NCBI GenBank assembly: GCA_021158105.1 | Contig: JAGGVH010000042.1 | Location: 1 to 38,361 of the forward strand | Source: Microcaldota archaeon | GTDB lineage: Archaea > Micrarchaeota > Micrarchaeia > Anstonellales > JAGGVH01 | Direction of reading: 5' to 3' | DNA: 38,361 nucleotides | Shown here: positions 30,934-36,396 of the stretch, piece after piece | Layout: every line of letters starts with the position of its first letter | Position numbering within the stretch: the stretch's first letter is position 1 | Translations under genes and position numbers: made by a program | Notes under the pieces: model-generated | Told to the model about the DNA's origin: nothing | Database searches by the model: none | Seen by the model: only the letters and a program-made list of their open reading frames with translations

Positions 30934-31147
30934 CGTCGGGGGAGGGATACTCAAAAAATCCCTTTTTCTTTTAAAAGAAAAAGGTCTTTCTTTGGGATTG
31001 AAAGACCCTTTTTCTTAGTGGAGGTTCTTTAGGATGTCCGAAGGACACCGAAAGAAAGTCCAAGGAAAGGGATTTCATTTGAACCCTCGAATGCTTACGC
31101 AAACTGGATTAGCAGTCCAGCGCCCTACCAGGCTAGGCGACCCCGAC
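30934..31147 (-). tRNA. tRNA-Ser(GCT) interrupted by a T-loop intron
   Basis: On the minus strand the 5' exon runs 31147-31077: acceptor GTCGGGG, D-arm with CTAGCCTGGTAG, anticodon stem CTGGA/TCCAG with GCT at 31113-31111, long variable arm TTTGCGTAAGCATTC, and T-arm GAGGG TTCAAAT. The sequence then breaks off for 130 nt. It resumes at 30946 with CCCTC, then CCCCGAC, and discriminator G at 30934. The joined product is 84 nt with full acceptor and T-stem pairing, a normal type II Ser tRNA. CCA is not encoded. Exact junctions can slide a few bases around the repeated AT. Confidence 0.88.
30947..31076 (-). other. 130-nt intron in the T-loop of tRNA-Ser
   Basis: The intron splits the T-loop at its 3' side. 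Its ends form a stem, AAATCCCTTT at the 5' end with AAAGGGATTT at the 3' end. Exon CAAA can pair with intron TTTG next to it, giving a relaxed bulge-helix-bulge. The inside is rich in AAAGAAAG and CTTTCTTT, forming strong hairpins (for example GGTCTTTC...GAAAGACC). No open reading frame for an endonuclease is visible. Confidence 0.82.
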
Positions 31148-31296
31148 GTCAGTCCCCCACATGTAGATTATTGTTTGAAAAGATTTTTAAACTCTTATTA
31201 AGCTTTTTGGTATGTTGCCACAGGCTACAAATATATTTTTAAACACTATATACTATAATTGGTGATGTGTTTGAGTTACGGGCCCGTAGCTCAGCT

Positions 31297-31338
31297 AGCC
31301 TTGGACTGAAGTCCAAGATTTTCAGACAAGGCCTGAAA
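31297..31338 (+). other. tRNA-Lys intron 1, 42 nt, in the D-loop
   Basis: The bulge-helix-bulge is clear. The central helix is TCAG (31291-31294) with CTGA (31333-31336). One bulge is CTA (31295-31297) and the other AAT (31337-31339). The inner stem is GCCTTG (31298-31303) with CAAGGC (31327-31332), enclosing a CTTGGAC/GTCCAAG hairpin. Cutting each bulge after its second base gives the D-loop AGCTTGGTA, a normal form. Confidence 0.85.
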
Positions 31339-31359
31339 TGGTAGAGCGGTTGGCTCTTA

Positions 31360-31532
31360 TGAATCCCTTTCTTTCTGTAGAAAGAAAGGTCTTCACCCCA
31401 AAGAAAGACAGTTTGTGAATGTTCACGAAAAAGAACATTTTGTGAATGTTCACGAAAAAGAATATTTTGTGAATGTTTTTTAATCCAAAGAAAATAAGTT
31501 TCTTTGGGGTAATGTATAGGGATTCAAGAGCA
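31360..31532 (+). other. tRNA-Lys intron 2, 173 nt, at canonical position 37/38
   Basis: The intron follows A37 (31359) and ends before A38 (31533). The inner stem GAATCCCT (31361-31368) pairs with AGGGATTC (31518-31525). The exon CTCTT, holding the anticodon, pairs with AAGAG (31526-31530), making the helix of a bulge-helix-bulge. Inside are a CTTTCTTTCTG/AGAAAGAAAG hairpin and a 27-nt tandem repeat. Confidence 0.85.
31412..31477 (+). repeat. 27-nt tandem repeat inside tRNA-Lys intron 2
   Basis: Units start at 31412, 31439 and 31466, a constant 27-nt period, with about 2.4 copies. Each unit holds TTTGTGAATGTTCACG followed by AAAAAGAA and a variable CAT or TAT. GTGAA and TTCAC inside each unit can form a small hairpin. 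The copies differ at only one position, so the expansion is recent or under conversion. Confidence 0.85.
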
Positions 31533-31551
31533 ACCAATAGGTCTAGGGTTC

Positions 31552-31611
31552 TGTCCTTTTCTTTCTTTGAAAGAAAGAAAACGACACCGAAAAGAAAGAA
31601 AGGATGCCTAA
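31552..31611 (+). other. tRNA-Lys intron 3, 60 nt, in the T-loop
   Basis: The intron splits TTC from AAAT in the T-loop. It contains the perfect hairpin TTTTCTTTCTTT / AAAGAAAGAAAA, then GACACCGAAAAGAAAG and AAAGGATGCC. The bulge-helix-bulge is weak: GTCC near the 5' end can pair with GGAT near the 3' end, and AGG with CCT. The junction choice is set by restoring the T-arm. Confidence 0.78.
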
Positions 31612-31660
31612 AAATCCCTACGGGCCCGTTTTATTAACTAATTTTGGTTATTTAATTTTT

Positions 31661-31946
31661 AGGAGGAGATCAAAAGTCCAAATGAATCGTTCAGATTCAT
31701 GTGTGCATTGAACGTTAGTTCAATAGCATGTTCCCCCGCGGTTCCGCATTATTATCCCATACATTCAGGGGGGATCAGGAATCCAAATGAATCAGGGATT
31801 CATTGGTCCTGTGAACGTTACGACGTTCACATGGAACGTAGAACTGAGGGGGATGTTCCCCCGCGGTTCCGTATTATTATTCTACAAATTCAGGGGGATC
31901 AGGAGTAACGTAGAACTGAGGGGGATGTTCCCCCGCGGTTCCGAGT
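31661..31946 (+). repeat. GC-rich hairpin repeat array (possible structured RNA)
   Basis: This gene-free stretch between tRNA-Lys and the CBS gene is built of repeated blocks. TGTTCCCCCGCGGTTCCG occurs at 31729-31746, 31854-31871 and 31926-31943. ATTATTAT..., then CAGGGGGATCAGGA, occurs at 31748-31780 and 31873-31904. AACGTAGAACTGAGGGGG occurs at 31835-31852 and 31907-31924. Two hairpin types are kept with changed sequence: ATGAATC/GATTCAT (31682-31700; 31786-31804) and ATTGAAC/GTTCAAT (31707-31724) against GTGAACGT/ACGTTCAC (31811-31830). GGGGGA-TGT-TCCCCC hairpins lie at 31848-31862 and 31920-31934. No coding signal is seen. Confidence 0.75.
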
Positions 31947-31985: not shown

Positions 31986-32459
31986 ATGGAAACAGAGATT
32001 CGAGTAGGAGATTGCATGCGAAAAGGCGTGATTGCGCTCAAATCAACTAATAGTGTTTATGATGCTGCCAGACTCATGAGTGATTCTGAGGTTGGCAGTG
32101 TTATTGTGATTAAAGATAATAAAGCAGTCGGTATTGTGACTGAGAGAGACCTTGTAAGAAAAGTCATTGCAAAGAAGAAGAATCCTATCAAGACCAAGCT
32201 TAACAAGATTATGAGCCACCCATTAAGGGTTATAAAGATTGACGCACCAATCAGGGATGCAGCGATTGCAATGAGAAAGTATAATATTAAGAAGTTACCA
32301 GTCATGGTCAAGAAGAAGATAATAGGTATGATTACTGAGACAGACGTATTGAGAGCATATCCTTCACTGGTTGACCTTTTGATTGAAGAGGAAATCATAA
32401 AACGGTATAATCCAAACCTTGCAGATCTCTCACAGTATAATGCTGAAATTAAAAAATAA
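31986..32459 (+). CDS. paired CBS-domain protein
   Basis: This 157-residue protein consists of two CBS domains (a Bateman module). Domain 1 has VGDCMRKGVIALKSTNSVYDAARLMSD...VGIVTERDLVRKVI; domain 2 has LNKIMSHPLRVIKIDAPIRDAAIAMRKYNIKKLPVM...GMITETDVLRAYPSL. CBS pairs bind adenosine nucleotides such as AMP, ATP or SAM and act as sensors. No effector domain is fused. The mRNA looks leaderless (TATA-like box 23-30 nt upstream). It lies between the hairpin repeat array and a GC-rich intergenic segment. Confidence 0.92.
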   Translation: METEIRVGDCMRKGVIALKSTNSVYDAARLMSDSEVGSVIVIKDNKAVGIVTERDLVRKVIAKKKNPIKTKLNKIMSHPLRVIKIDAPIRDAAIAMRKYNIKKLPVMVKKKIIGMITETDVLRAYPSLVDLLIEEEIIKRYNPNLADLSQYNAEIKK

Positions 32460-36274: not shown

Positions 36275-36396
36275 TGCGGGGGGCCGGATTTGAACCGGCG
36301 CAGGCCTAAACCACTGGATGGCTTATTATGCATACATTATATGTAGCATGTTTAATCTTGAGTCCAGCGCGTTTGACCAGACTCCGCCACCCCCGC
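36275..36396 (-). tRNA. tRNA-Leu(CAA) with an anticodon-loop intron
   Basis: On the minus strand the 5' exon (36396-36357) has acceptor GCGGGGG, the D-arm GGCGGAGTCTGGTCAAACGC and anticodon stem-loop CTGGA CTCAAG. The 3' exon (36319-36275) starts ATCCAG, continues with the long variable arm and GCCGG TTCAAAT CCGGC, and ends CCCCCGC plus discriminator A. The joined product is 85 nt with complete acceptor and T-stems. The anticodon is CAA (36360-36358). CCA is not encoded. Confidence 0.9.
36320..36356 (-). other. 37-nt intron of tRNA-Leu at position 37/38
   Basis: The intron lies between G37 and A38. It folds as ATGC/GCAT with TACAT/ATGTA inside, closing an ATA loop. The central helix of a bulge-helix-bulge is weak here, so the splice form is likely relaxed. 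An ambiguous A at each end lets the junction slide by one base. Confidence 0.72.

Follow-up and report, generated by a model that had tools for sequence, protein, structure and literature searches.

A hairpin array in a Micrarchaeota contig: a probable cluster of short non-autonomous mobile elements with a triplex-type fold

The hairpin array at positions 31660–31943 of a 38,361-nucleotide stretch of archaeal DNA (GenBank contig JAGGVH010000042.1, which is contig 1 of a 0.96-Mb, 89%-complete assembly and is here called the window) represents a dispersed element family at this locus. We regard it as probable, with good though not full confidence, that a short non-autonomous mobile DNA element with a triplex-type fold and long target duplications stands here as a cluster of several copies. 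This reading draws on sequence comparison: on the family itself, on Watson–Crick and mirror covariation among its members, on their 3′ end, on flanking duplications and one empty site, and on an association with tRNA genes. More tentatively, and short of expecting it to hold in full, we suggest a new class of mobile DNA that would move as a triplex-ended single strand, leave long variable duplications beside tRNA genes in DPANN and a few other archaea, and supply some archaeal tRNA introns. There is a substantial chance that the element’s way of moving is a new class.

So far, the debate about a role of DNA triplexes in living cells has drawn mainly on repeat tracts and on folding in vitro. 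If this more tentative reading is true, the element would provide a comparative-genomic demonstration, via three-way covariation, of a DNA triplex kept by natural selection; three strands that covary over many lineages by triplex rules make such selection directly testable.

Layout of the array and spread of the family

The features of the region are as follows (all on the + strand, with the evidence for each in parentheses).

31281..31632, +: probable intron-containing tRNA-Lys, anticodon CTT (read by eye; similar tRNA at locus L004)
31660..31746, +: unit A, decayed core unit (direct repeats, folding, intact equivalents at loci L004 and L002)
31747..31766, +: spacer CATTATTATCCCATACATTC, resembling the spacer that precedes unit C (direct repeat)
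31767..31871, +: unit B, core unit whose TCAGGA and P1 stem are set apart by a two-hairpin domain (sequence, repeats, covariance hit)
31767..31774, +: first purine run of unit B, proposed triplex third strand (mirror covariation among copies)
31783..31835, +: accessory two-hairpin domain of unit B, CC-hairpin-GG and TCC-hairpin-TGGA (sequence comparison)
31842..31871, +: core hairpin of unit B: AACTG, purine arm AGGGGG, loop, CCCCC, GCGGTTCCG (folding, covariation)
31872..31891, +: spacer TATTATTATTCTACAAATTC, 5′ of unit C (direct repeat)
31892..31943, +: unit C, complete minimal element (top covariance hit of the window, 70.4 bits)
31892..31898, +: first purine run of unit C, proposed reverse-Hoogsteen third strand (mirror covariation)
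31919..31924, +: second purine run of unit C, mirroring the first; purine strand of the duplex (mirror and hairpin covariation)
31930..31934, +: pyrimidine run of unit C, Watson–Crick partner of the second purine run (covariation)
31986..32459, +: gene for a two-CBS-domain protein, downstream of the array (Pfam CBS, E = 1.1e-25, two stretches)

The initial annotation of this DNA described alternating hairpins and repeated blocks, and all the blocks that it named are present: TGTTCCCCCGCGGTTCCG occurs three times, ending at 31746, 31871 and 31943, and the ATTATTAT...CAGGGGGATCAGGA and AACGTAGAACTGAGGGGG blocks occur twice each. The structure is far above chance; folded as RNA, the array is far more stable than shuffled sequence (z = −6.05 for the + strand, −5.86 for the − strand). 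The hairpin blocks are thus real, but the actual layout consists of three core units, one of them decayed, with inserted two-hairpin domains. Unit C has the complete order of purine run AGGGGGA, TCAGGA, loop, P1 with the G/C hairpin, and the precise 3′ end GCGGTTCCG; as single-stranded DNA its hairpin alone folds with z = −2.28. In unit A, the first purine run is degenerate, the 5′ side of P1 is lost and the loop is replaced by a two-hairpin domain, and the unit ends in CCCCC-GCGGTTCCG. Similar spacers of 20 nt stand ahead of units B and C.

The downstream CBS gene is an ordinary neighbour outside the element. The suggestion that the array might be a regulatory leader of this gene is rejected, because copies elsewhere adjoin unrelated genes and tRNAs in both orientations.

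Upstream, about 28 nt separate the array from the 3′ end of the tRNA-Lys gene, for which introns in the D, anticodon and T loops are probable as read by eye. The CTT anticodon fits the label that the initial annotation had given, but neither ARAGORN nor Rfam detects the gene, so that its identity is only deduced. A second region, around 31060–31160, probably holds another tRNA with D-, anticodon- and T-loop introns that both programs likewise miss. The tRNA introns here consist of short repeats (e.g. 27-nt TTTGTGAATGTTCACGAAAAAGAACA units at 31401–31481), which reappear in the tRNA intron of locus L003.

What had been taken for a local find recurs at several further places of the same genome. 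A 300-bp query gave six matching stretches, those beyond the window lying on contigs C13, C30, C8 and C31, and a covariance model, built from eight single-unit copies and holding the Watson–Crick hairpin as its only structure, added copies on C14 and C28. With this model, relatives were found to carry the element in 37 of the 84 genomes of the window’s order, at up to 30 copies per genome, and in 51 of 301 genomes of the phylum (E ≤ 1e-5). The distribution is patchy, even inside genera. An exact-pattern search of reference genomes returned 110 stretches; among the matches listed, nearly all are archaeal, from Micrarchaeota, Diapherotrites, Altiarchaeales, Aenigmatarchaeota, Woesearchaeota and other DPANN lineages, with single Thermoplasmatota and Euryarchaeota assemblies. 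The few bacterial matches read (L136, L177, L212) are without the hairpin, and the same search of viral contigs gave zero matches. Identical cores with different flanks occur both within one genome (G071) and across genera (L100, L102, L103, L104). In the window, Rfam at gathering score has no family for the element, its sole hit being an unrelated tRNA at 36275–36396.

Core anatomy and covariation of three strands

The core, about 55–75 bp long, comprises a purine run, TCAGGA and a loop, and then a hairpin with a G-rich and a C-rich arm. Its consensus reads purine run 1, TCAGGA, NNACSTNAAACTG, purine run 2, loop, pyrimidine run and a GCGGTTSG end; about 20 nt separate the two purine runs, and the 3′ terminus, ...CGGTTSG, is precise. 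In the P1 stem, C-N-(T)-N-(A)-AACTG, with T and A bulged, pairs with CGGTT-N-N′-G, the N/N′ variants being C/G, G/C and T/A (by eye). A T.G wobble in P1 is conserved in 80 of 81 copies.

The core hairpin was compared in 81 distinct copies, where standard pairs fill 99.3% of the cells of 11 tested pairs. Changes on both sides occur in eight of the 11 pairs, in 87 cells against a shuffled mean of 26.5, a number unmatched by any shuffle; the signal collapses when the partner is slid by one to three columns. Covariation in the core hairpin is therefore beyond background. Of the conditions that the initial annotation had set for its own refutation, the lack of a second occurrence in relatives and the lack of covariation both failed to apply. 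The accessory hairpins also differ from copy to copy with their pairing kept, as had been noticed at the outset in the paired changes of their stems.

Beyond this hairpin, run 1 is the mirror image of run 2 and varies together with it. The rule was examined in 99 distinct units that were picked by their hairpin alone to avoid circularity. At positions 1–5 of these units, a G-C pair is always matched by G in run 1, with zero exceptions, and an A-T pair is matched by A or, in three units, by T, never by G or C. At the first position, opposite the constant G, the two runs read A/A in 31 units and G/G in 68, with no mixed case. Only at positions 6–8 does the rule break, mostly where the duplex arm ceases to be purine (GGGGAACC and similar). 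In a larger set, pre-filtered at ≥3/5 mirror matches (138 of 151 units kept, 134 of the 151 matching at all five positions), 470 of 475 cells obey the rule, where permutations give a mean of 311 (sd 10.5). This set contains 25 distinct patterns, in which A or G at positions 1, 2, 4 and 5 switches jointly in all three strands; 121 of their 125 cells agree with the rule, and permutations reach 77 on average and 95 at most. Because this set was filtered on mirror matches, the 99-unit figure is the unbiased one.

The mirror relation finds no reason in a plain hairpin. Judged from the sequences, it is the rule of a purine-motif intrastrand triplex with an antiparallel third strand: over positions 1–5 of the 99 units, the three sequence blocks of one strand obey G.G-C, A.A-T and T.A-T. 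RNA reportedly does not form triple helices of the purine motif (PMC4666352), and the structure under selection is thus most likely DNA; in the cell, the strand would presumably fold into such a triplex. The initial annotation had proposed selection on RNA or DNA structure. The covariation bears this out, and the mirror relation, which that annotation overlooked together with the target duplications, points to DNA. Its suggestion of a new non-coding RNA is not favoured, given the reported failure of such triplexes to form in RNA (PMC4666352) and the lack of an Rfam match above threshold.

Several other lineages have an extra hairpin 4–6 nt upstream of run 1, with stems that vary yet always pair (copies including L155, L171, L178, L193, L176, L186 and L216). 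Four loci of genome G071 (L091, L094, L095, L109) carry a larger 5′ module with two nested stems of different sequence, a TTTATTTA-like linker and a conserved GAATAATATCC ahead of the element.

Duplications, tRNA genes and a proposed mode of insertion

At a score of at least 12, direct duplications flank 31% of 134 copies, compared with 0.9% of mismatched flank pairs used as control; a few of the duplications are tandem element arrays (e.g. L127, L030) and not simple target duplications, and in about two thirds of copies none was detected. They are 13–91 nt long (median 25), and the downstream duplicate mostly begins 0–2 nt past the element’s 3′ end (31 of 42). The 3′ junction has no target consensus past weak A/G preferences. 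We know of no such pattern of long variable target duplications among prokaryotic transposons, and in these very small archaeal genomes it points to a route of integration that is so far uncharacterised.

A single empty site could be read cleanly: at L108 (genome G050), two copies of ACAGCGTCCGAGGCCTTTGA flank the element, and the congener G012, lacking the element, has a single ACAGCGTCCGAGGCCTTTGA. At L107 (G056) and L319 (G050), the same gene carries the element precisely at its stop codon, and in G012 and G048 the element is lacking there. The palindromic mobile element array that was among the first suggestions is favoured by the dispersed copies, the target duplications, this empty site and the occurrence of the same core across genera.

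Copies are also associated with tRNA genes. Nine of 84 copies have their 3′ end no more than 3 nt from a tRNA edge called by ARAGORN, at 5′ and 3′ tRNA ends alike; from the element’s 5′ ends, the nearest tRNA is 16 nt off, with none within 15 nt. The upstream duplication at L072 equals the final 25 nt of the neighbouring tRNA-Leu. Read by eye, the element lies within the anticodon-loop intron of a tRNA-Arg at L004 (on contig C8 of the window’s own genome, G000) and at L105 (contig C5 of G047), and within a T-arm intron at L005, L096 and L097 of the own genome. Such copies suggest one source of tRNA introns. At L105, where the start of the intron coincides exactly with the element’s end, insertion may have created or enlarged the intron.

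In the mechanism that we propose, one strand of the minimal element (about 55–75 bp) would form a hairpin, with P1 (C-N..AACTG/CGGTT..N′-G) followed by the G-rich/C-rich stem. The upstream purine run would fold back into the major groove of this hairpin and lie there antiparallel, as the third strand; about 5–9 triads (G.G-C, A.A-T, T.A-T) would make up the resulting intrastrand purine-motif DNA triplex, and the end of P1 would be the element’s exact 3′ end. Movement would probably take place as a single strand, by means of a trans-acting enzyme or host repair; we infer both the single-stranded DNA intermediate and the trans-acting enzyme. Insertion at a staggered break, or at a pair of nicks about 13–90 nt apart, followed by fill-in, would yield the long, variable duplications. 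Since the duplication restores the end of the gene, copies could survive where they border tRNA or protein genes and within tRNA introns. Insertions of this kind would have left, in the window, two intact units and one decayed unit in tandem, with a hairpin-pair insert in units A and B.

Clustering of open reading frames at the reference-genome loci gave only unlinked housekeeping families, with no transposase travelling along. Reverse transcriptase (PF00078) is absent from G000 and from the high-copy genomes G050, G051, G014, G071 and G075; it is present in 20 of the 84 genomes of the order, and divergent enzymes or incomplete assemblies are possible. The Y1 transposase (PF01797) is absent from the window’s own genome, G014, G051, G071 and G075, and present in G050, G056 and G028. 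Most high-copy genomes are thus without either enzyme and neither is consistently present, so that neither is favoured as the partner. We propose a non-autonomous DNA element because no neighbouring gene recurs and both enzymes are mostly absent.

Alternative readings, related systems and accessory hairpins

The alternative that survives best, which we nevertheless consider unlikely, is an RNA-borne, SINE-like retroposon: the element would be transcribed, its 3′ hairpin read by a reverse transcriptase acting in trans, and its copies inserted by target-primed reverse transcription. That process leaves duplications of long and variable length, together with a 3′ end that is precise and a 5′ end that is less so; it accounts for the duplications as well as the DNA-element reading does, and the conserved T.G of P1 would be a normal G.U pair in RNA. 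Set against this are the mirror rule, which is that of a triplex reportedly not formed in RNA (PMC4666352), and the five high-copy genomes named above that lack reverse transcriptase genes.

Slightly less likely still is a domesticated structural element, scattered in the past and now serving the host, for instance in transcription termination, in RNA processing near tRNA genes or in replication-fork pausing. That P1 and the mirror rule are strongly conserved from phylum to phylum and that copies are frequent at tRNA edges and gene ends agrees with domestication; the patchiness among congeners and species, the placement in both orientations to genes, the relative’s empty site and the decay of one copy in the window speak against it.

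We also doubt, to about the same degree or a little more, that the triplex forms in the complementary strand as a pyrimidine motif (C+.G-C, T.A-T, with a parallel third strand), whether of DNA or RNA. This motif has the same mirror symmetry at every G and A position, and intrastrand triplexes of the pyrimidine type occur in RNA too (PMC4666352). The units whose sense third strand has T at an A-T pair (L118, L166, L120, L189, L196, L199) favour the sense purine motif, because that T is allowed only there and would be an A.A-T mismatch in the antisense motif; in addition, A-T pairs at positions 1–5 never have G or C in the third strand, and the conserved sense T.G would become a C.A mismatch in the antisense strand. 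Ordinary hairpin repeats, mirror-like only through G-rich composition and common descent, are very improbable: copies are indeed G-rich and many are closely related, but the fit over the 25 patterns of the pre-filtered set exceeds every permutation, and the zero exceptions in the 99 unfiltered units already contradict this reading.

The nearest described kin of the proposed DNA element are the bacterial Box C/PIT/TM intrastrand-triplex motifs (Holder et al. 2015, PMC4666352, citing Hoyne, Maher and colleagues). These too are short, dispersed, non-coding intergenic repeats with many copies per genome, in which a purine-motif triplex is possible within one DNA strand by double fold-back. The principle is the same; order and loops differ. 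The E. coli consensus runs pyrimidine–purine–purine with loops of 3–6 nt and 3 nt, whereas the element runs purine (third strand)–purine–pyrimidine with a loop of about 20 nt, and it does not fit the TM consensus CCCTCNCCC..GGGNGAGGG..GGGNGAGGG with loops ≤6 nt (PMC4666352). Unlike Box C/PIT, it has a conserved P1 stem, TCAGGA, a precise 3′ end, target duplications and a tRNA association. Holder et al. found no association of the E. coli motif with mobile elements; the motif folds in vitro, but footprinting in vivo gave no support for a stable triplex (PMC4666352).

Other systems share single traits. REP/RAYT (TnpA-REP) palindromes and IS200/IS605-derived elements are likewise short many-copy hairpin repeats, sometimes in tandem arrays, but most high-copy genomes of the present element are without Y1 transposase and 31% of its copies have duplications. 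Target duplication is not known for IS200/IS605 insertion. MITEs are also short, non-coding and dispersed, with target duplications at their flanks; those duplications are short and fixed, however, against 13–91 nt (median 25) here, and the element has no terminal inverted repeats, only one terminal hairpin and no recurring transposase family nearby. Eukaryotic SINE-like retroposons resemble it in their long variable duplications and precise 3′ end, and differ in that most high-copy genomes here show no reverse transcriptase partner and in the mirror rule, which points to DNA. Integron attC sites share the folded single-strand hairpin, a conserved AAC/GTT and bulged bases; an attC identity was rejected, since the element occurs as dispersed single copies with conserved primary sequence and long duplications, among unrelated flanking genes and with no gene cassettes. 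A search of the open-access literature yielded nothing on such elements in DPANN archaea.

The stems ATTGAAC/GTTCAAT and GTGAACGT/ACGTTCAC, whose differences had first drawn attention, belong to the two-hairpin domain. Near-identical copies of the unit B domain occur at three more places of the own genome, where its position is the P1 loop (unit B, L003, L005), the apical loop (L004) or both (L002). Comparable hairpin pairs lie elsewhere inside run 2 (L145, L192) or in the apical loop (L165, L184) and, at L173 (CAIXYX010000131.1), reversed in the pyrimidine arm. From its sequence, the domain looks like a second insert nested in the first, and it may itself be mobile. The like two-hairpin inserts of L173 and L192 stand in opposite orientations within the core hairpin, which suggests a second mobile hairpin parasitising the first element. 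At L203 (DAOUYQ010000062.1), a long-stem hairpin of ~85 nt, TCATACTGTGTAGCTC...GAGCTACACAGTATGA, is inserted in the pyrimidine side of the core hairpin.
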